Shown here one piece after another: positions 12,120 through 24,545 of a DNA stretch of 27,815 nucleotides; position 1 is the stretch's first letter; every line of letters starts with the position of its first letter. The stretch lies in the NCBI RefSeq assembly GCF_000160835.1, contig NZ_GG700733.1, forward strand, positions 553,964 to 581,778, written 5' to 3'. This DNA is from Limosilactobacillus antri DSM 16041. GTDB lineage: Bacteria > Bacillota > Bacilli > Lactobacillales > Lactobacillaceae. The position numbers and the translations under genes are program-made. Below the pieces are notes generated by a model. That model did not search any database and was not told where the DNA came from. It saw only the letters and a list, made by a program, of their open reading frames with translations.

Positions 12120-13472
12120 CTACTTTTTCGGCAGGACAATCTTTTGCTCCAGCCAGTGCTGGTTGCTGCTCCGGTCGTTGACGGCGTTCGGGTAGTGACC
12201 GAGGATAATTTTGAGGTTTCGCAGGCCCAGGTGGTGATTGTTGCCGATGCTGATCGAATGCTCCAGCTCGGCTAACTTGTTGAGGTCGACCTGGGCCTCC
12301 TTAGTCGAGTTGCCGACAATAATAAACTGGGCGTTCTCATTTTCAAAGAGGCTCAGGCTCACCTTCTTTTGCTTTGATACTTGTGCAGCATTGATGGCGT
12401 TATCAAGGAGGATTGCGGTGATCCGGATGGCATCGAGCGGCTGGAGGGTCGTCGTCAGTTCAAGCGGACGGACGACTTCTAAGCGGGGATGCAGGCCATC
12501 TTTAATGGCATCGCTCAGCTTTTGATAAACAATTGATTTAACTCCCAGGTCAGTGATGTTTTGCAGGGCCTCGAAGACGCTAGTCGGCATATCGACAATT
12601 CTGCTAGAGGACTGGGTCAGCTCTTGAATTGCTTGCTTAGCATAAGCAATGTGGTTGTCACTCAGCGCACTGGAAAGGCTGATAAGAATGTTTTGATAGT
12701 CGTGGCGAAAACGGCGCAGGTCATCATACATTACTTCCAGTTTATCGGTGTAGTTAGTAAGGCTGTCCAAATTGTGGCTGGCGAAAGTCGCCTGATCACG
12801 GTAATGGAGGTCGCTGCCAACATGGTTCATCACTAGGAGGGCGAGGATGAAGTAGGCGAGTGTAATCAACAGGGCAGCGGTGTTTCCGCCTAAATTATTG
12901 GCCGTCAGGAAATGTTGGACGAAGAAGAAAAAGAGACTCAGGGGGATAAAGAGGACGCTCAGACACCACTCGGCAACGGGGTGGCGGTTGTTAACCCGGC
13001 TAAAAAAGCGGTCGGCGAGTGGGCGAACGATTTTAATCACCAGGAGGGCGAAACCATAGATAAGTGGGATGAGGAAGGTGTGGGGGAGTGAACTAAACTG
13101 GGGGTATTTGACGAGGATGATTCGTGACAGTAGCAAACATACTACCGAGCTGAAGTAGTAAACTAACATACTGTAACCGAAATGGCTAACAATGGTTGCG
13201 AGGTGGTCACCAAACGGGTTCGCTAGGTAGTAAACTGCGACGATTGCCAGGCTGGCGGTGACCAAGTCATTAATGAAAAGACTCGGTGGCCAGAAGATGA
13301 AAGCTGCTCCCAAAACAACGTAGAAACCGATGGGGATAGTCCGGCGACTGATGTGCCGATAGCACCCCCAGAAAAGCCAGGGGTAGAAAAGGCATACTTT
13401 GACCAGAAATAAAATTAGGGAGGTCGGCGAGGCTACCCGTATAAATGGATTGTCAACAGCAAACAAGGTCAT
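12120..13472 (-). CDS. AgrC-like sensor histidine kinase (HPK10, GHKL ATPase)
   Basis: A 450-residue membrane sensor kinase. Residues 1 to about 220 form six or seven hydrophobic segments, as in peptide-sensing HPK10 kinases. A coiled segment leads to the phosphoacceptor box FRHDYQNIL with His257. The GHKL ATPase has N-box LLDNAINAA (355-363) and G-box HLGLRNL (414-420). GAGGTG precedes the start on the minus strand. The response regulator gene lies upstream in the same direction but 558 bases away, an unusually large gap holding a decayed gene. The ligand is probably a peptide, by family. No precursor gene was found beside it. Confidence 0.93.
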   Translation of the reverse strand: MTLFAVDNPFIRVASPTSLILFLVKVCLFYPWLFWGCYRHISRRTIPIGFYVVLGAAFIFWPPSLFINDLVTASLAIVAVYYLANPFGDHLATIVSHFGYSMLVYYFSSVVCLLLSRIILVKYPQFSSLPHTFLIPLIYGFALLVIKIVRPLADRFFSRVNNRHPVAEWCLSVLFIPLSLFFFFVQHFLTANNLGGNTAALLITLAYFILALLVMNHVGSDLHYRDQATFASHNLDSLTNYTDKLEVMYDDLRRFRHDYQNILISLSSALSDNHIAYAKQAIQELTQSSSRIVDMPTSVFEALQNITDLGVKSIVYQKLSDAIKDGLHPRLEVVRPLELTTTLQPLDAIRITAILLDNAINAAQVSKQKKVSLSLFENENAQFIIVGNSTKEAQVDLNKLAELEHSISIGNNHHLGLRNLKIILGHYPNAVNDRSSNQHWLEQKIVLPKK

Positions 13473-13509
13473 AAAATGAACACCTCAAGTAAAAGGATGG
13501 AGTAAACAG

Positions 13510-13950
13510 GTGAGCGTCATGGGTCCACATTGTGACAAGTTGAATCGACGAAATGCTATTAACTGGACTAGCTGTGGTCAGCAGGTCATGCAGCAGCTAG
13601 AACGACACCAGCGCCGGATCCTGCTGGGAGCCGATTCTTTGTCGTCATTTTTCGAGCACTGGTCGTGAAATAGAGCCAGCTTATTACGAACTTCAACACT
13701 GACGATAACGCCGTTTCGCGTTAAATTTTACGATCAGCAGCGCAAACTGATGATTAAGTATTCCCGTGGTGGGGATTTCAAACGGCATTATGAATATGTG
13801 AGTGGCACCATGCAGAGCTCTAACTAACTAAAGGGACGTACCGACATCGTTAGGTGTGCTAAGAAAAAGATGGCAGTGAATAACAAGCCCCAGCTGACGT
13901 TCGATTACGAAGGCCGCCGGGGCAGTTTTAATGATTATGATCGCTGTTGA
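13510..13950 (+). pseudogene. Decayed gene between kinase and regulator genes
   Basis: One reading frame runs about 146 codons from GTG 13510 (or ATG 13519), broken only by TGA at 13666-13668 and TAA at 13825-13827, and ends at TGA 13948-13950. The frame is kept across both stops, and the composition is protein-like (for example FRVKFYDQQRKLMIKYSRGG and KPQLTFDYEGRRG). GGATGGAG precedes the GTG as a ribosome site. No family is recognised. It lies opposite to the two-component genes that flank it. It may be a disrupted small gene, or chance openness; the stretch 13473-14030 holds no other candidate gene. Confidence 0.4.
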
Positions 13951-14030
13951 GGTGCCGGGCATCCTGAACTCAGGACTTTTTAAATAATTAAACTGATTGG
14001 TGAAAAGGGCATGACTTAATTAGTGCCGCT

Positions 14031-14792
14031 TTATGAATTGATAGAATAAAACTGATCGTTGAGCTCTCCTAGCTTGCTCAGGAGGGCTTTATTTTTTAAC
14101 TGCGATAGCGGCTGAGGATGCTGGGCACCGTTGAGGGTCACCAAGTGGTTGTGCGTGTCAATTTTGCTGACCTTGCTCAGGTTGACCAGGCAGTGCTTGT
14201 GTGTCCGAAAGAAAAGGGGTGAGCGGTCTAATAATTGGTTGAGGTTGGCATTGATGGTTGTGACCTGGTTATTAACGGTGTGCATCAGTGATTGGTGCGT
14301 GTTGGTCGGACTGGGTTCGAAGTAGACGATGTCGTCCAGGCTAACGCGAAGGAAACCGCTGGTGACTTTAAGGGTGATTGTTGGGGTTGAAAAGTGGGCT
14401 AGCTTGTTGGCGACATGGAGCAGGTCCTTAGTGAGCTTTTCTTTAATATTATCCTGATCCTTAGCAATGAAGTCGAGGGCCTCCGACTCGTAGTTATAGG
14501 TTGTTGGCAGGAGTTCATTGTGGATCGTGATAAAAATAATCGACGCGAACAGGTCGTTTTGGCGGATGTGCTGACTAACTTTCAGCCCGGCTAGGGTATC
14601 GCCGTTGATTTCCAGGTCAAGCAGGAAGAGGTTTTCAACACTCGGCGATGGCAGGCTGTTTAAGAAATCGGTGGTATTAGAAAAGAGGTTGATTTTGAAA
14701 GGCGCGAGTTTATGCGCAGCCTCAATCTCATGGAGTATTTTTTCCAAATGAACTTGTTGGGCCCATTGGTCTTCGAGAATGTAAACATTCAT
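14031..14792 (-). CDS. LytTR-type response regulator (AgrA/ComE family)
   Basis: A 253-residue regulator. The receiver domain has the acidic pair E7/D8 and the phosphoacceptor Asp59 in FLLDLEI. The C-terminal part (about 145-245) is a LytTR DNA-binding domain with FFRTHKHCLVNL. Such proteins bind pairs of roughly 9-base direct repeats spaced about two helical turns apart. The start follows GGGGGAAATAAGCC on the minus strand. It is divergent from the surface-protein gene at 15034, which has direct repeats 20 bases apart in its promoter. A 7-base-pair inverted repeat (14809-14826) lies 17 bases upstream of its start and could be an autoregulatory site. Confidence 0.93.
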   Translation of the reverse strand: MNVYILEDQWAQQVHLEKILHEIEAAHKLAPFKINLFSNTTDFLNSLPSPSVENLFLLDLEINGDTLAGLKVSQHIRQNDLFASIIFITIHNELLPTTYNYESEALDFIAKDQDNIKEKLTKDLLHVANKLAHFSTPTITLKVTSGFLRVSLDDIVYFEPSPTNTHQSLMHTVNNQVTTINANLNQLLDRSPLFFRTHKHCLVNLSKVSKIDTHNHLVTLNGAQHPQPLSQLKNKALLSKLGELNDQFYSINS

Positions 14793-14808
14793 GGCTTATT
14801 TCCCCCAA

Positions 14809-14826
14809 TTAGTATTCATATACTAA
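14809..14826. repeat. Inverted repeat upstream of the response regulator
   Basis: TTAGTAT and ATACTAA flank a four-base loop (TCAT). It lies in the untranslated leader or promoter region of the minus-strand regulator gene. Confidence 0.5.
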
Positions 14827-14894
14827 ATAATAGGGAAAGCCGGGGCTAAAAAATAGGGACGTTTCGGCCCCAGAATAAACTTCTGGCAGTTAAC

Positions 14895-14994
14895 TGAAAT
14901 TTTCAGCACATTCTTCCTGACGGCGATTGCACAGAATGAAATAATCTGCATATTCGTGAAATTTGCCCAATTATCGCCAGTCGTTTCTTATAAT
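14895..14994 (+). promoter_or_regulatory. Regulated promoter of the first GWHA surface protein
   Basis: TATAAT at 14989-14994 has no good -35 box at 17 bases. Instead TGAAAT occurs at 14937 and 14957, 20 bases apart, with a further copy at 14895. The second full motif, TGAAATTTGCCCA, starts 32 bases before the -10. The palindrome CAGTTAACTG (14887-14896) overlaps the first copy. The arrangement recurs at 21098-21155 and suggests activation by a response regulator. Confidence 0.6.
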
Positions 14995-15033
14995 TTTGAG
15001 TGTGTAAAAAACGGATTGGGGGAGGAAAATAGG

Positions 15034-17364
15034 ATGGCAATTCGCAAATCAGAACCAACCTGGCGGCGGACATCTTTGTTTACCGCTACCCTGGGAATTA
15101 GTATTTTACTGAGTGGTCAGGTTGGACACGCTGACCGGACAACTGCTGTAACACCAGCACAACAGCCCGTGGCCCAACCAGCGGCAACGCAAGATAACGG
15201 AACTGCACAGCAGACAGCAACTGTTGCAGCGGGACAAGAGAACCTGGCGTCAGTGACGACGCAGCATCAATATGGAACCGCAGACCAACCAATTATTGTT
15301 ATTAGTGATGATCTTAATGCAGAGCCGCGCCAAAAATACCAAGAGCAACTAGAGAAGTGTATTGCTGAAGAAAAGCAGGACGAAGAGGCTATTCAAAATG
15401 ACCAGAAGGAAAGTGTAGATATATCAGGTCAGATAGGTACTTTGACGGCCAAATCATATTACGATTATACTAAACACCCGGAAAACTATGATAATACAGA
15501 TGCTCCTGCTGAGTTACAAGAGATACTCAAAAATTACGAACAACTAAAGCAAAAAGTAGCAACTCAGCAAAATGCAGTTGATGAAGAAGAGCAATTAGTG
15601 GCAAAAAAGAAAAAGGTAAGTGATGACTGGGAAAAGTTTGTTGATGAACAAGAAAAAAGGGGAACCCATCCAATGGCTGAATATTGGAACAAATCAGCAG
15701 CTTATTTATCTGATCTACGTGTCCATATAGATAAACTGAGGAAAATGGAAAAAGCTCTTTGGGACGATGAAAATACACTGTCTACTCTTTCTTCTTCCTT
15801 AAGTGATGAAATAGAAAAAAACAAATCGTGGATTTACTCAAAGATTGAGCAACGTTCTGACATCATTGCTTTACGGACAAAAGAAAAGCAATTAGACGAA
15901 GATGCTCATAAGCGTTTCGGTCAGACTATCCTTCTTGGGAACCAAATTAAGACCTTGCCCGATGTCATAGCAACCGTAAAACCTGAGGATTATGCGGTAA
16001 ATAAGTTGATTACCCGAACAATTCACATTGTGATTCCCGGACAGGCGCCTACGGATATTAAGCAAGTCGCCAGCTGTTACGCCCACCAAATTCGTGATGG
16101 TCAAAAGATTACTTATGAGGAGTGGCAAAAAGATAGTTGGAGCTGGAAAGCCTATACTCCAAAGGCCTACTTCGGCTATAACTGCGATGTTACCGAAGTT
16201 CCAGCCGTCACGGTTTATCACGACACGCCGAATCAGACAATCACTGTTACTTACACAGCTCAGGCAGGATTAGACAACAACTACGACCATAACGACCACG
16301 GCAACTATGCCTGGCTTGACCACTACCAGCTGAGTGGCGACCAGCTCCAGGTCAGTGGCTGGCACGCGACGAGCGACGTTAAGAATAAGCCGTACCACTA
16401 CCTGATTGTCTTTGATAACACGACGCACAGTGAAGTGACACGGTTGATGGTCCGCCAGACCGCCCGTCCTGATATTGCTGTTGTGCACAATGTTTACGGT
16501 GCCGGGTTGGCCGGTTTCCAGACGAATCTTGATTTGCCAGCGGCCGTCTTGCAAGCTGGCGACCACCTTTCCCTCATCAGCCGCTACACGGATGACCAAG
16601 CCGGCAACGGCGACGCCACAGACTACTGGTTTGACTTGCAAATGGACCAGGGCAACCACGGCTACCTTGACGTGGCTCAAGTACAAAACGGCAAACTTCA
16701 CGTGGCCGGTTGGCACGCGACTAACCAGGCATTTGGCCGTGACCACCATGTCCTGATTCTCTTTGACGCTAGTCGGGGGCACGAAATCGCCCGGGTCAAC
16801 GCTACGAATGCCGAACGTCCTGATATTGCCAAAATTTATCCCACGGTAGGAAATGCGACGATGGCCGGCTTTGTGGGCGACTTTGATCTTACACCGGAGC
16901 TAGTGACTGATAACCTGCAAATCATTAGCCGGTACAGCAGCGACGCGGACGCCAATAGCGACTACGTTGACTTCTGGTCGGCTCCCCGGCGGCTAACGAC
17001 TGATACCAGCAACCAGGGCTGGCTAGATGACGTTAGCGTCCGGGATGGTCAGCTCCACATTGTCGGCTGGCACGCAACTGACCGCTCGCTGGGGCGTAAG
17101 TACCACTACATCATTATCTTTGATGCCACACCAGGGATTGGCCATGAGCTAAGGCGGTTCAACATTACCGACCAGGAAGTGAGCCGTCCGGATGTCGCTA
17201 AGGCTTTTCCAACCATAATGACTGCTGGCAACTCCGGCTTTAATATTAGTTTTGCCAACGATCCGGACTTCACTGAGGAGCACGATTTGCAAATTATTAG
17301 CCGTTGGACCGATGACCCAGCCGGCAATGGCAATGCGGTCGATTACTGGTTTAAGCCGGTTTGA
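15034..17364 (+). CDS. Secreted surface protein: coiled coil, Mub-like domain, three GWHA repeats
   Basis: A 776-residue exported protein. ATG 15034 follows GGGGGAGG, and a signal peptide ends near GQVGHA. A Gln/Ala/Thr-rich linker leads to a Lys/Glu-rich coiled-coil stretch (about 90-300). A domain beginning ITRTIHIVIPGQ and ending QTITVTYTA (about 320-405) resembles the mucus-binding B-type repeats of lactobacilli. Three ~118-residue repeats follow, with GWHA at 442, 559 and 678, each ending in a variant of ISRY-DD-AGNG-DYW. The chain stops right after the third, with no LPXTG anchor, so the repeats may bind the wall or glycans. The coding DNA for the coiled coil is visibly AT-richer than the repeats, suggesting domain shuffling. 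The role is probably adhesion or a wall-associated function; binding partners are unknown. Confidence 0.8.
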   Translation: MAIRKSEPTWRRTSLFTATLGISILLSGQVGHADRTTAVTPAQQPVAQPAATQDNGTAQQTATVAAGQENLASVTTQHQYGTADQPIIVISDDLNAEPRQKYQEQLEKCIAEEKQDEEAIQNDQKESVDISGQIGTLTAKSYYDYTKHPENYDNTDAPAELQEILKNYEQLKQKVATQQNAVDEEEQLVAKKKKVSDDWEKFVDEQEKRGTHPMAEYWNKSAAYLSDLRVHIDKLRKMEKALWDDENTLSTLSSSLSDEIEKNKSWIYSKIEQRSDIIALRTKEKQLDEDAHKRFGQTILLGNQIKTLPDVIATVKPEDYAVNKLITRTIHIVIPGQAPTDIKQVASCYAHQIRDGQKITYEEWQKDSWSWKAYTPKAYFGYNCDVTEVPAVTVYHDTPNQTITVTYTAQAGLDNNYDHNDHGNYAWLDHYQLSGDQLQVSGWHATSDVKNKPYHYLIVFDNTTHSEVTRLMVRQTARPDIAVVHNVYGAGLAGFQTNLDLPAAVLQAGDHLSLISRYTDDQAGNGDATDYWFDLQMDQGNHGYLDVAQVQNGKLHVAGWHATNQAFGRDHHVLILFDASRGHEIARVNATNAERPDIAKIYPTVGNATMAGFVGDFDLTPELVTDNLQIISRYSSDADANSDYVDFWSAPRRLTTDTSNQGWLDDVSVRDGQLHIVGWHATDRSLGRKYHYIIIFDATPGIGHELRRFNITDQEVSRPDVAKAFPTIMTAGNSGFNISFANDPDFTEEHDLQIISRWTDDPAGNGNAVDYWFKPV

Positions 17365-17481
17365 TCCATCAGGCTTTCAGTAAGGAACACCTTATTTAAT
17401 GGCATGAAACGCTAAGCAAATAAGAGGAAGGACTGCCATAGTTGACAGACCTTTTTATTGGGAGAAGGAGTGATAGAACGA

Positions 17482-18408
17482 ATGAAAAAATTATGGATAC
17501 TAATAGTAACAATGATGATGGCTATTGTCTGTTTGCCCATAACTGTTATGGCAGAAAAATACAGCAAGATGGTTGCCTTGCCGCAAGGATCAGAGCAGAT
17601 GTATGTATATGATAATGGCAAAAAAACCAATACTCATTTGCGGCCAGATCGAATGACGCCAATTAAGCAGAACCGAACTAATTTAAATCCGTTAGTGTTA
17701 AAGGGAAAGTTTCCGTTAGTTGGTTGGGCGGGGATTACCTTAAAGCAGTCTGATTATAGCCTCATGAAGCCAACAGAAGATCAAGCTGATGCACTAGGTA
17801 TTTCACGCATTTTAGTTCCCAGAAATAACGATTATGAAAATCGGGATGGCAAGGGATTGGACTACACTTTACAGAACCGGTGGGTTATAAAAAGTAAGGT
17901 TGCGCCGATGGCAATCAATGATTTGAAGCAATTTACGCAAGCTCATAACAGCAGCGATAAGAGTCAGCTGCAAAACCAGAGCAAGACCTTGGTGGAAAGC
18001 TGGCGCAAAATCGCTAACTATAACTTTAATTTGGATAAGCTGCAGGTAAACTCATTTTCAATGGGATATGCTCAAGAAGACGGAAATCACGATGATGCAA
18101 GCCCAAGTATAAAAAATACTACGTACATGGACGTAGTAATTAAGGCAAAAACTTCCCGAAAGATAGGAGAGCACAACTTTAAGAATGAGGAAGATGGTGA
18201 AGATCCAGAGATGGCTGAATTGGATCGGGGAAATCACGAAATAATCGAGAAAAACGATCCAGAGGCCAAAAGCAGTTCGATTGAAGGGACGGGTAAAACT
18301 ACTGACACGGAACATGAATACGATAACTTTCATGTGCACTACAACTTGATCGATGGTAAATGGCAGTTGAGTTGGGTTCAAATGAAGGCAATTCCATGGG
18401 GGGATTAG
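17482..18408 (+). CDS. Secreted protein of unknown function
   Basis: A 308-residue protein with a clear signal peptide (MKKLWILIVTMMMAIVCLP, cleavage after about VMA). No domain is recognised. The mature part is polar, with an Asp/Glu-rich stretch (about 220-270), and ends in a segment that alternates aromatic and charged residues (HVHYNLIDGKWQLSWVQ), which looks like a beta-sheet edge. Upstream in-frame TTG 17458 and GTG 17470 exist, but only ATG 17482 starts at a signal sequence. GGGAGAAGGAG precedes it by 11 bases. It is AT-rich like its downstream neighbours; the next gene starts four bases after its stop, so they form an operon. A TTGACA at 17442 has no matching -10 box. Confidence 0.75.
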   Translation: MKKLWILIVTMMMAIVCLPITVMAEKYSKMVALPQGSEQMYVYDNGKKTNTHLRPDRMTPIKQNRTNLNPLVLKGKFPLVGWAGITLKQSDYSLMKPTEDQADALGISRILVPRNNDYENRDGKGLDYTLQNRWVIKSKVAPMAINDLKQFTQAHNSSDKSQLQNQSKTLVESWRKIANYNFNLDKLQVNSFSMGYAQEDGNHDDASPSIKNTTYMDVVIKAKTSRKIGEHNFKNEEDGEDPEMAELDRGNHEIIEKNDPEAKSSSIEGTGKTTDTEHEYDNFHVHYNLIDGKWQLSWVQMKAIPWGD

Positions 18409-18412
18409 GAAA

Positions 18413-19129
18413 ATGAAATTTTGTCCAAACTGTGGCAATAAGCTAAATGGAAATGAAAGTAAATGTCCAAAATGTGGGCTTGTATTAAAGAAAAAACAGC
18501 CCAAGGAAAATAAACAGGATCATGATATTAAGGAAATCCTTAATAAGGTCGACTCTACTAGGTTCAAAGATTTAGGTAGACAGCATAAAAAGCTAATTAT
18601 TGGGATTGTCTGTGCAATTGTTGCCGTGATTGTTGTGTATTCACAAATTTACGTGCCCCATGTTGTTGATTCAGCACTGGAGAACAATGGTTTTACGAGC
18701 GCTAAGGGCTATAAAGTTAATATCGACCGGGGAAATAAAACGATTACTGTAATGCCTAATTTTGGTTCACAACAACAAATTAATAGCCAGCTTGAGTCCA
18801 ACGGCTTTGATACACGGGTGGTGACGGCCGAAAGTCAAATGTCCAATGTAGCTCATGAGATTGCTGGGAAAACGTTTGGTAAGTGGACCGTGCGAATGAC
18901 AGCAGAAAATGTTCATACTCGTGATTATAAATTAGCTTATTATTGGGTATTTAAAGGAACCAAGGAGACTACACGTTTTCAGACCAGCCCGGTTGGTCAG
19001 GAATTTAGACGTCATTATCTTCAGCAAAAAGAAGATGAAGCTAATGAAGAGGATAAAGCACATACTGATGATGTGATCACTGCGGGTGCGCTTGGTGGAG
19101 CACTTGGCTTTATGGCGGGGGCTTGGTAA
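18413..19129 (+). CDS. Zinc-ribbon membrane protein
   Basis: A 238-residue protein with an N-terminal zinc ribbon (Cys4, Cys7, Cys18 and Cys21 in CPNCG and CPKCG), a charged linker, one transmembrane helix (about 60-78, IIGIVCAIVAVIVVYS) and a predicted extracellular domain of about 130 residues. It ends in a Gly/Ala-rich hydrophobic tail (ITAGALGGALGFMAGAW). The layout, cytosolic zinc ribbon then membrane then outside domain, is shared by several Firmicutes envelope-stress proteins (inference). It is coupled to the PrsW-type gene just downstream, which also starts with a zinc ribbon. Function unknown. Confidence 0.8.
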   Translation: MKFCPNCGNKLNGNESKCPKCGLVLKKKQPKENKQDHDIKEILNKVDSTRFKDLGRQHKKLIIGIVCAIVAVIVVYSQIYVPHVVDSALENNGFTSAKGYKVNIDRGNKTITVMPNFGSQQQINSQLESNGFDTRVVTAESQMSNVAHEIAGKTFGKWTVRMTAENVHTRDYKLAYYWVFKGTKETTRFQTSPVGQEFRRHYLQQKEDEANEEDKAHTDDVITAGALGGALGFMAGAW

Positions 19130-19131
19130 AA

Positions 19132-20283
19132 ATGCCTGATAGCAAAATCGTCTTTTGTACGAATTGCGGTGCTAAAAATAGTACTGACAGTAAGTTCTGT
19201 ATTAACTGTGGAAAGCCATTAGTTAAAAGCAATGGTCAAGTAATCGATTCGACTAGTAATGATAATGAAGAGTCGATAAACAGCTCAAACAAGCAAGGGG
19301 TAATGGATAACGTTACGTCTCACATTAATGCTTGGACGGGTGGCAAGGGAGCGGTCAAAGTTAGTCTGAGCGAATTCTTCAGCCAAGTCTTTAGACGCCA
19401 CACAACAGAAGAAGCTGAGGAGTTATTTATTGTGGGAACCGACAAAACGACACCATCGTTAAGTGAAATTGTTAATGATAAGGTTCAGCCTTGGCTATTT
19501 TCGCGGGTGTTGGGATTCGTTTTAGCTATCGGAATTTTAATGTACTTTCTGCTTGGACTTTTGCCAGCATATGGTATTTGGATATCTATGGATGCCTTTT
19601 TAGCGGTTGCAGTTCCCCTATCAGCACTAGTTCTTTTCTTTGAATGTAACGTTTTTCAGAATATTAGTTTTTACCAGGTAACTAAGATGGCTCTGCTTGG
19701 TGGAGTGTTGTCGTTGATTGTTACAATTTTGTTTGTCAATTTCTTTGGCAATCGGGAGCTCGACCTGCTTGGTGCCCTGCAAACAGGATTCGTGGAAGAA
19801 CTTAGCAAGGTGTTGGTAGCAGCTTACTTTGTTTATAAAATCAAAGCTAAACGAATCTTTAATGGGCTATTAATCGGTGCTGCTGTTGGTACTGGATTTG
19901 CTGCCTTTGAAAATGTTGAGTATATGTTTAATGATAAAACTGGCCAAATTGCTTCCATGCAAGAAGCAATTGGTCGGACGATGTTTTCAATTTCAGATCA
20001 TACGGAATGGTGTGCGATAGCTACGGCGGCGCTTGTAATGGTGATTGCGGGGAAACAGCTATCGTCAAGTGACTTTTTCAACTTTAAATTCTTGCGCTTC
20101 TTGTTGCTGGTGATGATTATTCATGCCCTTTGGGACTGGAATGCCCTAAATCAGTTTGGCATTTTACGATACATGGCGTTAGCGGTGGCTACTTGGATAG
20201 TTGTTTTTGTCTTCATTCATGCAGGACTACGGGAAGTGAAGTTGTTGCAAAGTGAAACTAAAGATAGTCAAATTAATATCTAA
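19132..20283 (+). CDS. PrsW-type intramembrane protease with N-terminal zinc ribbon
   Basis: A 383-residue protein. The zinc ribbon has Cys9, Cys12, Cys23 and Cys26. A Ser/Asn-rich linker leads to about seven or eight transmembrane helices. PrsW-family catalytic motifs are in order: FVEELSK with Glu222/Glu223, FAAFENVEYMF, SDHTEWC and IIHALWDW. PrsW in Bacillus cleaves an anti-sigma factor within the membrane. The substrate here is unknown; the single-pass protein encoded just upstream is a candidate. ATG 19132 lies two bases after the previous stop; a TTG at 19123 would overlap that gene and is possible. Confidence 0.87.
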   Translation: MPDSKIVFCTNCGAKNSTDSKFCINCGKPLVKSNGQVIDSTSNDNEESINSSNKQGVMDNVTSHINAWTGGKGAVKVSLSEFFSQVFRRHTTEEAEELFIVGTDKTTPSLSEIVNDKVQPWLFSRVLGFVLAIGILMYFLLGLLPAYGIWISMDAFLAVAVPLSALVLFFECNVFQNISFYQVTKMALLGGVLSLIVTILFVNFFGNRELDLLGALQTGFVEELSKVLVAAYFVYKIKAKRIFNGLLIGAAVGTGFAAFENVEYMFNDKTGQIASMQEAIGRTMFSISDHTEWCAIATAALVMVIAGKQLSSSDFFNFKFLRFLLLVMIIHALWDWNALNQFGILRYMALAVATWIVVFVFIHAGLREVKLLQSETKDSQINI

Positions 20284-20744
20284 TTGTGAAATCTTGGGAG
20301 GAAAATTAATTATGAAAAAATTAGCACTAATCGCCACCACTTGTTTAGCGGGATTGACGTTAACAGCGTGTGGCAACCAACATCATGGCAGTAAGGGTGC
20401 AGACAGTTCTTCGACCACCAGCAAGACGGTCCGCTCGTCGTCACAAAAGAGCGGTTCTAGCTCGGTCAGCCAGTCGAGCAGCTCAGCGGCTGCTTCTTCG
20501 TCATCGGCGGCGGTTCACCTCACCGGCGGGCAGAGCTCAATCGACTACATTACCCAGAAAATGGGTGACCAGGGCTGGACAATTGATGGCGGAACCTATG
20601 GCGGGGCCCATGGTGCACCAACCGATGGCAGCTACGTTCCGTATAATTCAGTTCGCAACGACAACGGGGATGTCTACTACGTTTATCAGGATGGCCGGAT
20701 TGAAAAGCAGGCCGAATAATATCTAATTGTGAGATTTTGCGAGA
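20275..20744 (+). repeat. 27-base direct repeat flanking the lipoprotein gene
   Basis: 20275-20301 and 20718-20744 match at 23 of 27 bases, with the first 15 (AATATCTAATTGTGA) identical. The first copy spans the stop of the PrsW gene and the ribosome site of the lipoprotein gene. The second follows the lipoprotein stop and runs into a 35-codon ORF. Duplication or insertion of the lipoprotein gene between the copies is suggested. Confidence 0.7.
20312..20719 (+). CDS. Small serine-rich lipoprotein
   Basis: A 135-residue protein with a lipoprotein signal peptide and lipobox LTAC (Cys20 predicted to be lipidated). A long Ser-rich spacer (about 30-68) is followed by a compact C-terminal region with Gly and Tyr (GWTIDGGTYGGAHG, VYYVYQDGRIEKQ). 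It is anchored outside the membrane. ATG 20312 follows GGGAGG. The gene lies 28 bases after the PrsW gene and is flanked by a direct repeat. Function unknown. Confidence 0.8.
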   Translation: MKKLALIATTCLAGLTLTACGNQHHGSKGADSSSTTSKTVRSSSQKSGSSSVSQSSSSAAASSSSAAVHLTGGQSSIDYITQKMGDQGWTIDGGTYGGAHGAPTDGSYVPYNSVRNDNGDVYYVYQDGRIEKQAE

Positions 20745-20851
20745 TGAATGCCGATCCGAACATTGATCCGGAATTCAAACGGCGAATCAACCTGCCGCCA
20801 GATGATTCAGACTACATTCAGCCAACCCATGATCCGGATAGTTGGCGTTAA
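20744..20851 (+). CDS. 35-residue acidic ORF, possibly a remnant
   Basis: ATG 20744 opens 35 codons beginning MNADPNIDPEFKRR and ending HDPDSWR before TAA. The composition (Asp, Pro, Arg-rich) looks protein-like. The upstream region is a mutated copy of the sequence ahead of the lipoprotein gene, in which GGGAGG has become GCGAGA, so translation should be weak. It may be a small protein or the rest of a longer gene. Confidence 0.35.
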   Translation: MNADPNIDPEFKRRINLPPDDSDYIQPTHDPDSWR

Positions 20852-20861
20852 TAAGCTAGGG

Positions 20862-21092
20862 AGCGAGACAAACCGTGAAACAGAAATCAGGATGATTTCG
20901 TTTTTGAACGGTTCTAACGTGGAAGTCGGAATCGACTTCGTTTTTCGACGCGTAGCTAGCCTGTGGGGAGCCCCCGCAAGCGCAAATAGGGTTTCAGAGT
21001 TTGGCTTTACCGAACACTGGAACCCATTTGCGTACTGCGCCGTTCGTATTTTATCTAAGTAAGAGGGCTTATGTCACAGCCTCTTTTTAGCG
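20862..21092 (+). other. Multi-hairpin intergenic element
   Basis: A 230-base stretch without a credible gene but with ordered hairpins. GAAATCA/TGATTTC (20883-20899) and GAAGTCG/CGACTTC (20922-20939) are each followed by GTTTTT, 39 bases apart. A GGGGAGCCCC stem lies near 20965. A long imperfect stem (about 20980-21003 with 21011-21033) brings CGCAAAT against ATTTGCG. A terminator closes the set at 21060-21086. It could be a dispersed repeat element or a structured RNA. Confidence 0.55.
21060..21088 (+). terminator. Intrinsic terminator before the second GWHA protein
   Basis: AAGAGG-CT pairs with AGCCTCTT (one bulged G) around TATGTCAC, followed by five T. Confidence 0.75.
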
Positions 21093-21097
21093 CAGCC

Positions 21098-21155
21098 TGA
21101 AAGAATATCCCGATTCCTGAAATGTGCCCACATCCGGTTAGAAAGCACTTATAAT
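21098..21155 (+). promoter_or_regulatory. Regulated promoter of the second GWHA surface protein
   Basis: TGAAAG at 21098 and TGAAATGTGCCCA at 21118 lie 20 bases apart. TATAAT at 21150-21155 starts 32 bases after the second motif and 45 bases before ATG 21195. All three distances equal those at 14937/14957/14989/15034. The -35 is poor, consistent with activation. Confidence 0.6.
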
Positions 21156-21194
21156 CACGGTTGTATAAAATTTGATTCTGGGGGAGATTATACG

Positions 21195-24100
21195 ATGCGG
21201 AAAAAGTTATACAAAGCAAAGAAAAACTGGGTTATCGGCTTAGCCGCCGGTGCGTTGCTATTAGTGGGCGGGGCAACCACTGCCAGCGCTGATGCCAATT
21301 GGAACCCGCCTGCGGCCCAATTCAGCCAATTTGGCTACAATTCACGGCCCACGGTTACCTGGAGCGGTATTGACACGTCTCAGTATCCGGGTGTGACGTC
21401 TAATGACCCCGCAAACATCAACTCAGCTGTCCTGGATGCTAACGTTAATGTGCAGACAGCGGGAGAAGACGCGGGGCTCAACCAAACAACGCCAGGCTTT
21501 TCTTATAACGTGACGACTAATGGTCATTCGCTGAGAAACGATGAGAGCGTTAATGTCGATTACTACTTCAGCAATGGCGTGAATTATGGAACGAACGGAG
21601 CCGAGTTTGACTCGACCAACAGTAGCACGATTAGCTATGCTGGCACCTTCCGGAACAGCGTCGAAGCAAATTACCTAGGGGTCAGTGGTTCGATTAACGA
21701 CCACCAGATCACGATGCGCCGTGAAAATGACGCGCAAATGACCCATACATCTGATCCGCATAATGTTTCATATCTAACTAAAGAAGCGACCGTCAACGGC
21801 AACACCGTTACCAATACTATCCGGGTTAATACCGACAATGGTGCGGTGCAGCCTGGCGTGTGGGGACTGACGATTAAGCCATACTGGGCGGTTAATGGCG
21901 ACGTTAGTGTCTATGATACGGCGGCGCCATATAAAAACGGGAACGCCTTCTACTACATTATTCGGGATGCCCAGGGTCGGCCACAATGGTTGGAAGTAAT
22001 CCGGCCGCAAAATGGTATGAGGCTCTTTTCCGGGCATGACATTAACTACACCACCGGCCCGCTTGGCGGCTACCAGATGAGTGGCAATAGCTCGACTGCG
22101 CCAGGATCGGCACGGAACCTTTACATGATGGCACCGGCAGGGCTCAATGCTGAGTTTACCTACACCGAATCTTACTACTGGGTCGGCGACGGGTATAATA
22201 ATCCGCAAGCCAACGTGAATGCCGGCTACCTTGATGGCTACCAGCTGGAGCAGGATAACTATGGCAATCCACTTCTCCACGTGGCCGGCTGGCACGCTGC
22301 TTCGACCAGTGCCGACTTGCAGAACGGCTGGCTGATTGTGTTCGATAACACGACTGGGACCGAAATTAAGCGGCAGCGGATTAACCCGGTCGCCCGTCCT
22401 GACGTGGCAGCCCAGTACCGTAACGTGGCTAATAGCAGCCAAGCTGGTTTTGATGAGCGGATTAGCCTGCCGAGCAGTGTCCTTGGTCACCAGCTGACCA
22501 TTATTGCCCGTTATTCTGATGACGCTAATGGTGGTGAAGGTCATCGCACCGACCTCTGGCTGGGGCAACGGATTAACATTAATATGGACAATAATGCCCA
22601 CATTGATGGGACTAAGCTGACCGGTGGCAAGGTGGTTGTTAACGGCTGGCACGCCACGAATACTGCCCTGGGGCGGCGGTACCACTACGTCATTGCCTGG
22701 GATGCGACCCGCGGTCAAGAAATTACCCGTCAGCAGGTTGCTAACGTTAGCCGGGCTGATGTTGGTCGGGCCTTTCCAACCGTCATCAATGCGGACCGGT
22801 CTGGCTTTAGTGCTAGCTTTGACCTTAACGACCCCCGCTATGCCAACGACCAAATCCAATTTATCAGCCGCTACACCGATGACTGGGCTGGGAACGGAAA
22901 TTGTGTCGACTACTGGTTCGCTCCCCAGCGCCTGCTGGCTGATACCGGCAACCATGCCAGCTTGGACGGCTACCGGTTGACTAATGCCGGATTGCAAGTG
23001 GCCGGCTGGCACGCTACGAATGCCGCGCTAGGGCGGAACTATCACACGATTATCGTGTTGGACGCGCGCAACGGTCGTGAACTCGGTCGGCAGACAATTT
23101 ACTCCGGGAGCCGGCCAGATGTCGCCCGGGCCTTTCCTGGAGTAATGAATGCGGACCAGTCTGGTTTTAACACGACAATTGCCTTTAATTCCGCGATGGC
23201 GACCGACCCGGTTCGAGTGATCAGCCGGTGGAGCGCTAGCCGTGACGCTAACAGCAACTACGTAGATTACTGGTTTGCGCCGGTTCAGCTGCTGGCTGAC
23301 CAGGGCAACTACGCCAACTTGGATGGCATAAGCTGGACTGGTCGCCAGGTACAAATGGGTGGTTGGCACGCCAGCAACCAGGCCTTTGGCAAGCAGTATC
23401 ACTACATTATTCTCTTTGACCAGACCCGGGGCTATGAGGTCGGTCGCCAGCTAGTCGAAAGCGGCAGCTACCGGCCAGACGTTGCGAACGCCTTTCGGGG
23501 AGTAAGCAACGCTGATAATTCTGGCTTCAATGTTACAATTACCCCTAGTGTGGATATTCGTGGCGACCGCCTGCAAGTGGTCAGTCGGTGGACAGACGAC
23601 CCAGCCGGTAATGGCAATGGGACCGACTACTGGTTCGCCCCACGGGTGGTTGCTAGCCGGCCGAGCGACGCCGACTATTCCCTGGCCCAGCTGAATCAAC
23701 GGAGCGTTACGGATCCTGCTGCTTGGGGGATTTATGCAACGGCTACGGCAGATGCGCGGGCGGCGGCTCAGGAATGGCAAAATGGCAATCATGATTATCA
23801 GATAGCAGATCGAATGAAAGACGGTTTGCAAGTTCGGTACAATCCAACTCCTAAGGATAGTAGTACAATTTTGAATAATCAGGTGTATGTTGACGATAGT
23901 ATGCCAGCGGTTATTAATGAAATGTATAGTGACCCACAAATGAAATTGCATGTAAATAAGTTTACAGCTGCTATCCTTAATGGCATTCGTCAAGCTTTAG
24001 GAATTAATAATAGTACAGTATTGACTAATTCTGCTTTAATCGAAGATGCTCAAAAATATATTTTCAATCCAAAAATTAGTAACACCCAACTTTTTGGAGA

Positions 24101-24545
24101 GGTTGCTGATTATTCTGATTTAACAGGTAATGTTGGAGAAAATCTAACATGGCAGAATTCATTCGGCTATGGTGGTGGTAACTACCTTACTGGTGATAAA
24201 CCATACGAAACAACCTGGAGAACGGGAAGAAATGACAAGCCCGCACATTCATTACGGTTGGCTGACTTTAAAGGCTTCATTTTCTCAATGCTCTTAACTG
24301 GAAACGGGGGAAATACGCACGGCTTTGTTAACGGCCAAATTGATAATAAGCATTATTGGGGACCGAACGATGTAGATCTCGGATCTGCTTTTAACATTGC
24401 CAATCCAGAAATAATTTTTGGAAAAGTTGACAACCCCAAAGAATATGTTGGCTTGACGCTTGCTAATCCTACTGTTGCTACTCATGGTAATATTATGTTA
24501 CTTCTGACTAGTAGTAATGTTGGCGCAGGAATTGATTATAATTAA
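21195..24545 (+). CDS. Large secreted surface protein: four GWHA repeats and CAP-like C-terminal domain
   Basis: A 1116-residue exported protein. The signal peptide has a KxYKxGKxW-like start (KLYKAKKNW, Gly replaced by Lys), cleaved near TTASA. Residues about 35-335 form a Gly/Asn/Tyr-rich beta-type domain I do not recognise. Four ~119-residue repeats follow, with GWHA at 365, 484, 604 and 723, the same family as in the protein at 15034. The C-terminal ~280 residues, in AT-richer DNA, contain FTAAILNGIRQALG, an ALIEDAQKYI helix and GENL at 981-984, recalling the CAP-like domain of SEC10/PgrA surface proteins. No LPXTG motif. The 57-base gap to the lipoprotein gene downstream lacks a clear terminator. 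The promoter is shared with the 15034 gene. Confidence 0.82.
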   Translation: MRKKLYKAKKNWVIGLAAGALLLVGGATTASADANWNPPAAQFSQFGYNSRPTVTWSGIDTSQYPGVTSNDPANINSAVLDANVNVQTAGEDAGLNQTTPGFSYNVTTNGHSLRNDESVNVDYYFSNGVNYGTNGAEFDSTNSSTISYAGTFRNSVEANYLGVSGSINDHQITMRRENDAQMTHTSDPHNVSYLTKEATVNGNTVTNTIRVNTDNGAVQPGVWGLTIKPYWAVNGDVSVYDTAAPYKNGNAFYYIIRDAQGRPQWLEVIRPQNGMRLFSGHDINYTTGPLGGYQMSGNSSTAPGSARNLYMMAPAGLNAEFTYTESYYWVGDGYNNPQANVNAGYLDGYQLEQDNYGNPLLHVAGWHAASTSADLQNGWLIVFDNTTGTEIKRQRINPVARPDVAAQYRNVANSSQAGFDERISLPSSVLGHQLTIIARYSDDANGGEGHRTDLWLGQRININMDNNAHIDGTKLTGGKVVVNGWHATNTALGRRYHYVIAWDATRGQEITRQQVANVSRADVGRAFPTVINADRSGFSASFDLNDPRYANDQIQFISRYTDDWAGNGNCVDYWFAPQRLLADTGNHASLDGYRLTNAGLQVAGWHATNAALGRNYHTIIVLDARNGRELGRQTIYSGSRPDVARAFPGVMNADQSGFNTTIAFNSAMATDPVRVISRWSASRDANSNYVDYWFAPVQLLADQGNYANLDGISWTGRQVQMGGWHASNQAFGKQYHYIILFDQTRGYEVGRQLVESGSYRPDVANAFRGVSNADNSGFNVTITPSVDIRGDRLQVVSRWTDDPAGNGNGTDYWFAPRVVASRPSDADYSLAQLNQRSVTDPAAWGIYATATADARAAAQEWQNGNHDYQIADRMKDGLQVRYNPTPKDSSTILNNQVYVDDSMPAVINEMYSDPQMKLHVNKFTAAILNGIRQALGINNSTVLTNSALIEDAQKYIFNPKISNTQLFGEVADYSDLTGNVGENLTWQNSFGYGGGNYLTGDKPYETTWRTGRNDKPAHSLRLADFKGFIFSMLLTGNGGNTHGFVNGQIDNKHYWGPNDVDLGSAFNIANPEIIFGKVDNPKEYVGLTLANPTVATHGNIMLLLTSSNVGAGIDYN

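Follow-up and report, generated by a model that had tools for sequence, protein, structure and literature searches.

In Streptococcus pneumoniae and S. mitis, the regulon of the LytTR regulator ComE is recognised through the ComE box aCAnTTcaG-12-aCAgTTgaG, with the -10 element at 31-32 base pairs (bp) in most rows of Table 2 of the study concerned and at 13-42 in the others (PMC6001120). LytTR Regulatory Systems (LRS), which combine a LytTR regulator with a membrane inhibitor, have paired direct repeats near the promoter of their own operon, mostly 12 bp apart and in a minority 11 or 13 (PMC6193735). In Lactiplantibacillus plantarum, the agr-like systems lamBDCA and lamKR are associated with an adherence phenotype in strain WCFS1, and lamBDCA includes the LamB/LamD peptide genes (PMC12405376). 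The two-component systems bfrKRT and cemAKR of L. reuteri 100-23 have been linked to biofilm (PMC5917019, PMC5039595), and two host-specific L. reuteri systems have regulators of the LytR/AlgR family encoded beside a bacteriocin-like peptide or a bacteriocin-processing peptidase (PMC3873254). Here, we report a promoter module found twice in a 27,815-nucleotide stretch of the Limosilactobacillus antri DSM 16041 genome (contig NZ_GG700733.1, positions 553,964 to 581,778; hereafter the window), where it precedes two surface-protein genes, one of them beside a LytTR response regulator gene. We describe its conservation, its specificity for surface genes in one related genome and its association with LytTR genes, and propose that it contains the operator of a family of LytTR regulators. 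No paper on this operator was found among the titles and abstract beginnings of the open-access literature, which is weak evidence as the subscription literature lies largely outside that search.

The promoters of target genes 1 and 2 (P1 and P2; Table 1) have the layout TGAAA-N15-TGAAA-N27-TATAAT in common. In each, the two TGAAA copies are 20 bp apart, TATAAT lies 32 bp from the second copy, and the ATG (15034 and 21195) follows 45 nucleotides (nt) after the first base of the -10 element. A preliminary description, made from the letters alone, had given all of these coordinates and spacings correctly, together with the divergent orientation of the regulator gene and gene 1. Its remark that the -35 boxes are poor agrees with a sigma-70 scan of positions 13400-21400, which reported no -35/-10 pair using either -10 element and no -35-like hexamer at 16-18 bp. 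The full pattern TGAAA-N15-TGAAATNTGCCCA-N19-TATAAT, which includes a TGCCCA extension of the second copy, has two exact matches in the window, gains none when up to three mismatches are allowed and was absent from 100 dinucleotide shuffles of the window. The 13-mer of this pattern alone, at up to two mismatches, was found four times in the window where 3.4 occurrences were expected; because it is not above chance, the evidence rests in the spacing.

A close relative of the window is genome G034 (2.0 Mb), which has 93% DNA identity to the window in the longest common piece and a regulator 83% identical to that of the window. The preliminary description had called for a genome search for the module, and regarded a motif common upstream of unrelated genes as evidence against a regulon. 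Run in G034, this search did not refute the regulon; it returned exactly three exact TGAAA-N15-TGAAA-N27-TATAAT sites, all three before surface genes, namely the orthologues of genes 1 and 2 and a gene for an LPXTG protein. The G034 gene-2 promoter is nearly identical to P2, while the intergenic region of gene 1 has diverged but retains the complete spaced module as well as a TGAAA 42 bp upstream of it. The third site (P3) lies 45 nt before the gene for the LPXTG protein, which is 1000 amino acids long, scores 52.8 bits against SEC10/PgrA, below the threshold of 70, and has a 210-residue module in common with the product of window gene 2 (33% identity, E 3e-23). Across 50 genomes of the genus the exact module was found at four sites, three of them in G034, with none in the reversed control. 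Across 396 Lactobacillaceae genomes there were eight, three in G034 and one each in five others, against one in the reversed control; judged from reading frames alone, neither these five nor the fourth site of the genus set precede a surface gene.

Two details of the preliminary description stood in part. The 45-nt distance from the -10 element to the ATG is present at both window genes and is not fixed, as the leader measures 46 nt at G034 gene 1 and 39 nt in another genome, G009. The reading TGAAAT-T/G-TGCCCA for the second copy likewise applies to both window promoters; the extension is kept at just one of the three G034 sites, that of gene 2, and is absent at the other two. At up to two mismatches, the longer pattern with TGCCCA gave 29 matches in 18 of the 50 genomes, several of which carry the same string, compared to 8 in the reversed control. 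The single exact match was the G034 gene-2 promoter, and the extension was rejected as a general part of the operator on this count.

The same half-site pair recurs in front of related LytTR regulator genes. The 400 bp upstream of 34 such genes, a subset of the regulator loci, were compared, and 30 regions remained after the near-duplicates L007, L020, L110 and L025 were dropped. TGAAA pairs at exactly 20 bp numbered 12, in 9 of the 30 regions (10 in 7 when the window and its G034 orthologue are excluded), while every other TGAAA spacing gave at most five pairs and shuffles produced a mean of 0.23 and a maximum of 2 for the 20- and 21-bp spacings together. In 263 control upstream regions from the same loci, four pairs were found at 20 bp, made up of the window and G034 gene-2 promoters and a single L011 site that was counted twice, once from each side; five pairs were found at 21 bp. 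The consensus from 19 sites is approximately ACTGAAAwAAw-n3-CA-n-wT-nn-CTGAAA. Such sites upstream of the relatives' regulator genes suggest autoregulation, in which the third half-site of the window, at 14895 and not listed in the preliminary description, has a possible part; in G034 its TGAAA is kept and its palindromic right half is not. Separately, we observed that in L015 and L018, and in L011 with one altered copy, the regulator gene is immediately preceded by four TTTCAG-type half-sites, arranged in two 20-bp pairs at a distance of 47 bp.

A LytTR operator is the most likely meaning of the half-site pair because the 20-bp TGAAA pair recurs before related LytTR genes and because, in G034, surface genes are the only ones that the module precedes. 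On this basis, we propose with a probability of roughly 0.8 that the module is an activator-dependent promoter whose half-site pair (consensus ACTGAAA, 20 bp apart) forms the operator of the window-family LytTR regulator and places wall-associated surface genes under its control. The kinase would phosphorylate the regulator upon a signal, and the phosphorylated LytTR dimer would occupy the two half-sites from the same side of the helix, at the observed distance upstream of TATAAT. The bound regulator would then recruit the polymerase in place of the weak -35 element, to express large secreted wall-associated proteins that would comprise the products of the two window genes and the LPXTG protein of G034. 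Shared LytTR-type regulation of these genes is well supported as a prediction from sequence comparison, and the cell is probably able to alter its surface coat in a single coordinated programme.

Several observations weigh against this proposal. At one or two mismatches, G034 contains ten further matches, of which two were examined, compared to four in the reversed control at up to two mismatches. Of the 30 regulator upstream regions, 21 have no exact TGAAA pair at 20 bp. The genome-wide specificity is drawn from one relative, G034, and G009 has modules before genes with GWHA repeats (described below), yet its best regulator match is 41% identical, accompanied by a broken copy. Between the P1 and P2 leaders, 21 of 39 positions are identical where about 11 would be expected by chance, and part of this likeness may be due to descent. 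Unlike the ComE boxes of the cited study, the half-sites are on the opposite strand relative to the promoter, and their period is 20 instead of 21.

The strongest competing explanation is that the sites are bound mainly by a LytTR regulator other than the neighbouring one, for example one of the paralogues near G034 1555399 or 1754694, or by several paralogues jointly. The relatives in which a match was found have one to three members of the regulator family per genome, several of whose upstream regions carry the same half-site, and the G009 modules occur without a close regulator orthologue; a paralogue may act on them, or they are relics. However, the three exact modules are found only in G034, the sole genome of the 50 with a close orthologue, and P1 abuts the regulator gene of the window. 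We consider this explanation unlikely. The same operator could also serve for repression instead of activation, as nothing in the sequence is incompatible with it and a site beside the regulator gene could work with either sign. The absence of a -35-like hexamer at 16-18 bp and the location of the site 32 bp upstream of the -10 element, near the position of the ComE box of induced genes in the cited table, make repression improbable.

The module might also be a promoter-leader cassette that was copied between surface genes and is under no special regulation. The likeness of the P1 and P2 leaders agrees with copying, as does the fact that the surface genes share modules and vary in their 3' parts between relatives. 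When P1, P2 and P3 are compared, the repeats and the -10 element are conserved and the bases between and after the repeats partly so, but the identity of the 19-bp spacer at positions 33-52 is no higher than chance (6 of 19 for each of the pairs P1/P2, P1/P3 and P2/P3) though its length is fixed. A fixed distance with a free spacer speaks for a working site, alongside which some copying of cassettes may have taken place. The same TGAAA pair also occurs before regulator genes, and we regard copying as the whole explanation as very improbable. Chance coincidence, for which only the behaviour of the 13-mer alone could be cited, has a negligible probability and is already contradicted by the shuffles, by the conservation in G034 and by the three sites there.

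Further sites were sought with two wider models. A degenerate operator pattern, drawn partly from sites already seen, gave 19 matches at one mismatch in the 50 genomes compared to 4 in the reversed control: seven before regulators, five before surface genes, one with a zinc-ribbon gene on one side and a surface gene on the other, and six without a fitting gene. The last six (hairpins at L127 and L128, and no fitting gene at L129, L130, L138 and L141) were not counted as support. New sites from this pattern are those in G009 and G004, the one in G010 having been known earlier. In G004, about 155 nt separate the site from the start codon and the nearest -10 candidate is at 39; the corresponding value for the G010 site is 34. 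With a profile of five promoters, the two best new matches listed for the 50 genomes were in G009 (E 0.0064) and G034 (E 0.012), both before KxYKxGKxW GWHA genes and with one altered repeat and the -10 element at 32 and 31, respectively; these E-values apply per genome, and by score alone the matches are weak across 50 genomes. Of the many profile matches with E between 0.0147 and 10, those at G034 1875455 and 292984 were examined; the former (E 0.048) precedes the remnants of another GWHA gene, and a G009 module with spacings of 20, 32 and 39 precedes a broken GWHA gene. Beside GWHA genes in L106 (G034, about 1754694) and L010 (G009, C6), a paralogous LytTR regulator gene was seen to be broken; in G009, the GWHA gene next to it has a degenerate operator. 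At G034 292983 (L095, about 1501-1558) there is a near-perfect operator with a correctly spaced TACAAT and no clear gene downstream. A pheromone gene under this site (L095/L124; one mismatch) was considered, but inspection by eye gave no convincing candidate, just a 42-codon TTG frame overlapping another gene. The site is 97% conserved in G009, which is uninformative as the whole stretch is conserved.

The regulon would be one defined by the operator and not by the GWHA repeat, with at least three members in G034. For the preliminary description, this means that a shared regulator-type module is supported, with a LytTR operator as its most likely meaning given the pairs before related LytTR genes and the surface-gene specificity in G034. 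The proposed membership, both GWHA proteins of the window, does not hold: in G034 the module also precedes the LPXTG gene and the orthologue of gene 1 is devoid of GWHA repeats, and the majority of GWHA genes have no site. The wider idea that all GWHA genes belong to the regulon was also rejected, since only 7 of 37 scored surface open reading frames (ORFs) in the window, G034 and G009 stretches exceed the null. The scored set consisted of GWHA or KxYKxGKxW ORFs and three L123 ORFs; some ORFs in these stretches start inside broken genes and were scored there and not at a true start. The seven beat all 451 null windows save one, which corresponds to P2. Three of the seven had served for training, a fourth is orthologous to one of these and another (L244, 3.2) is barely above the null.

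Table 1. Features of the window that belong to the proposed regulatory system.
Feature	Coordinates	Strand	Remarks
Sensor kinase gene	12120..13472	-	GHKL (HATPase_c_5) type, distantly AgrC-like
Zinc-ribbon membrane protein gene, remnant	13501..13995	+	In-frame stops; tblastn E 7e-35 to L091 13172-13747
Response regulator gene	14031..14792	-	Receiver and LytTR domain; divergent from gene 1; proposed half-site binder
Third half-site	14894..14906	.	CTGAAATTTTCAG; TGAAA at 14895, 42 bp upstream of first P1 copy
P1 paired half-sites	14937..14961	+	TGAAA at 14937 and 14957; second copy reaches 14969 (TGAAATTTGCCCA); spacing kept in G034
P1 -10 element	14989..14994	+	TATAAT
Ribosome-binding site, gene 1	15018..15025	+	GGGGGAGG; read from sequence
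Target gene 1	15034..17364	+	Secreted surface protein; Muc_B2 domain, three GWHA repeats
P2 paired half-sites	21098..21122	+	TGAAA at 21098 and 21118; second copy reaches 21130 (TGAAATGTGCCCA)
P2 -10 element	21150..21155	+	TATAAT
Ribosome-binding site, gene 2	21180..21186	+	GGGGGAG; read from sequence
Target gene 2	21195..24545	+	KxYKxGKxW signal, four GWHA repeats; C-terminal module common to third G034 target

The GWHA repeats of the two target genes (about 119 residues each; 22206-23657 and 16276-17361) have no match in Pfam (0 of 28). A profile built from them matches EfAmi1, an amidase/endolysin of an Enterococcus prophage, in its C-terminal domain, which is uncharacterised (E 1.1e-11). 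The structural model of a repeat is a confident, beta-rich domain (pLDDT 94.2), for which a comparison with the PDB yielded nothing at or below E 0.001; antibody domains came closest, at E of about 0.007. GWHA genes were found in 23 of the 50 genomes of the genus, and two of those with operator-like sites also encode an L,D-transpeptidase (YkuD) or a beta-lactamase-like domain. As the repeats are related to the C-terminal domain of EfAmi1, the regulated proteins may bind the wall non-covalently and would then be attached without a covalent anchor; wall-bound enzymes and adhesin-like proteins would both fit as targets.

The surface genes differ in their 3' parts between the relatives while having modules in common. 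The G034 orthologue of gene 1 (L091 11424-12167) encodes 247 amino acids and has the signal peptide and N-terminal part in common with gene 1 (31% over 212 residues); by eye, it appears to end in a membrane anchor. Gene 2 and its G034 orthologue (L091 6196-9153) have promoter and repeats in common and differ in their C-terminal parts, as would be seen with module swapping at the 3' end.

The regulator of the window belongs to a narrow family, with 22 relatives recovered by protein search, and 13 of 31 related loci with named genome records, including the closest ones, are from Limosilactobacillus. Its LytTR domain scores 50.6 bits against PF04397 (cut-off 22.6). The receiver scores 29.9 bits against PF00072, slightly below the cut-off of 30.2, and was counted as a receiver, with D8, D59 and K111 invariant in 23 aligned sequences. 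The nearby kinase scores 48.6 bits against PF14501 (cut-off 22). Against the NCBIfam models, the regulator reaches 87.2 of the 400 bits required for AgrA and the kinase 84.1 of the 500 required for AgrC. With both cut-offs far off, Agr quorum sensing is unsupported, and what the preliminary description had called AgrC is a likeness and not an identity.

A gene for a zinc-ribbon membrane protein accompanies many of the related systems on the opposite strand. By a simple pattern it is present in 17 of 30 listed loci, between regulator and kinase in 12 and after the kinase in 5; this count misses the copy in L003, the copy in L105 is in another order, and the intact zinc-ribbon match of the window is a different gene. 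In the relatives (L001-L008, L011, L015, L107, L109 and L091) it encodes a small membrane protein with one helix, and in six loci (L001, L003, L004, L005, L007 and L107) its 3' end overlaps that of the regulator gene by 8 bp. The model of the protein is moderate (78.9) and its structure matches are weak and mostly lipocalin-like, from which nothing was concluded. Such a protein might tune a LytTR system that works without a peptide, with a portable operator-promoter cassette recruiting changing sets of wall-bound surface proteins, and the loss of the zinc-ribbon gene in the window would then alter the control of its coat; we consider this picture speculative and rather doubtful. Elsewhere in the window (18413-20283), two adjoining zinc-ribbon membrane proteins are encoded, the second with a PrsW-type intramembrane protease domain.

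The analysis provides an operator that can be tested (ACTGAAA with a period of 20 and the -10 element at 32 bp) for one family of Limosilactobacillus LytTR systems, and its short list of targets ties LytTR systems to the surface proteins of gut-type lactobacilli. If it is true that the targets bind the wall, one signal would remodel the wall-associated coat.

Compared to the described systems, as far as the cited parts of those papers go, the proposed operator resembles that of ComE in its LytTR regulator, in direct repeats that form a pair spaced by about two turns of the helix, and in a distance of about 32 bp to the -10 element. The half-site CTGAAAT, set beside ATTTCAG of ComE, is the reverse complement of the ComE-box letters, and the second copy of P2 read on the other strand, ACATTTCAG, is a letter-perfect half-site. 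The module nevertheless differs from a ComE box as defined by 9-bp repeats, a 12-bp gap, a period of 21 and the ComE orientation. The predicted targets here are surface proteins, unlike the competence genes of ComE, and no pheromone gene was found. As in LRS, a LytTR protein is predicted to act through paired direct repeats near the promoter of its own operon; unlike LRS, the regulator is of the receiver type and is accompanied by a GHKL kinase, which places the locus outside that class. With the lam systems it has in common an AgrC-like kinase and an AgrA-like regulator. It differs from lamBDCA in that the Agr cut-offs are missed and that AgrB (PF04647) was found in none of seven relatives, a search without a positive control as none of 14 control genomes passed the cut-off either. 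The systems bfrKRT and cemAKR are, like that of the window, two-component systems of the same genus, a likeness by description only. Within these sources, the nearest described systems are L. reuteri bfrKRT and cemAKR and the lam systems of L. plantarum.

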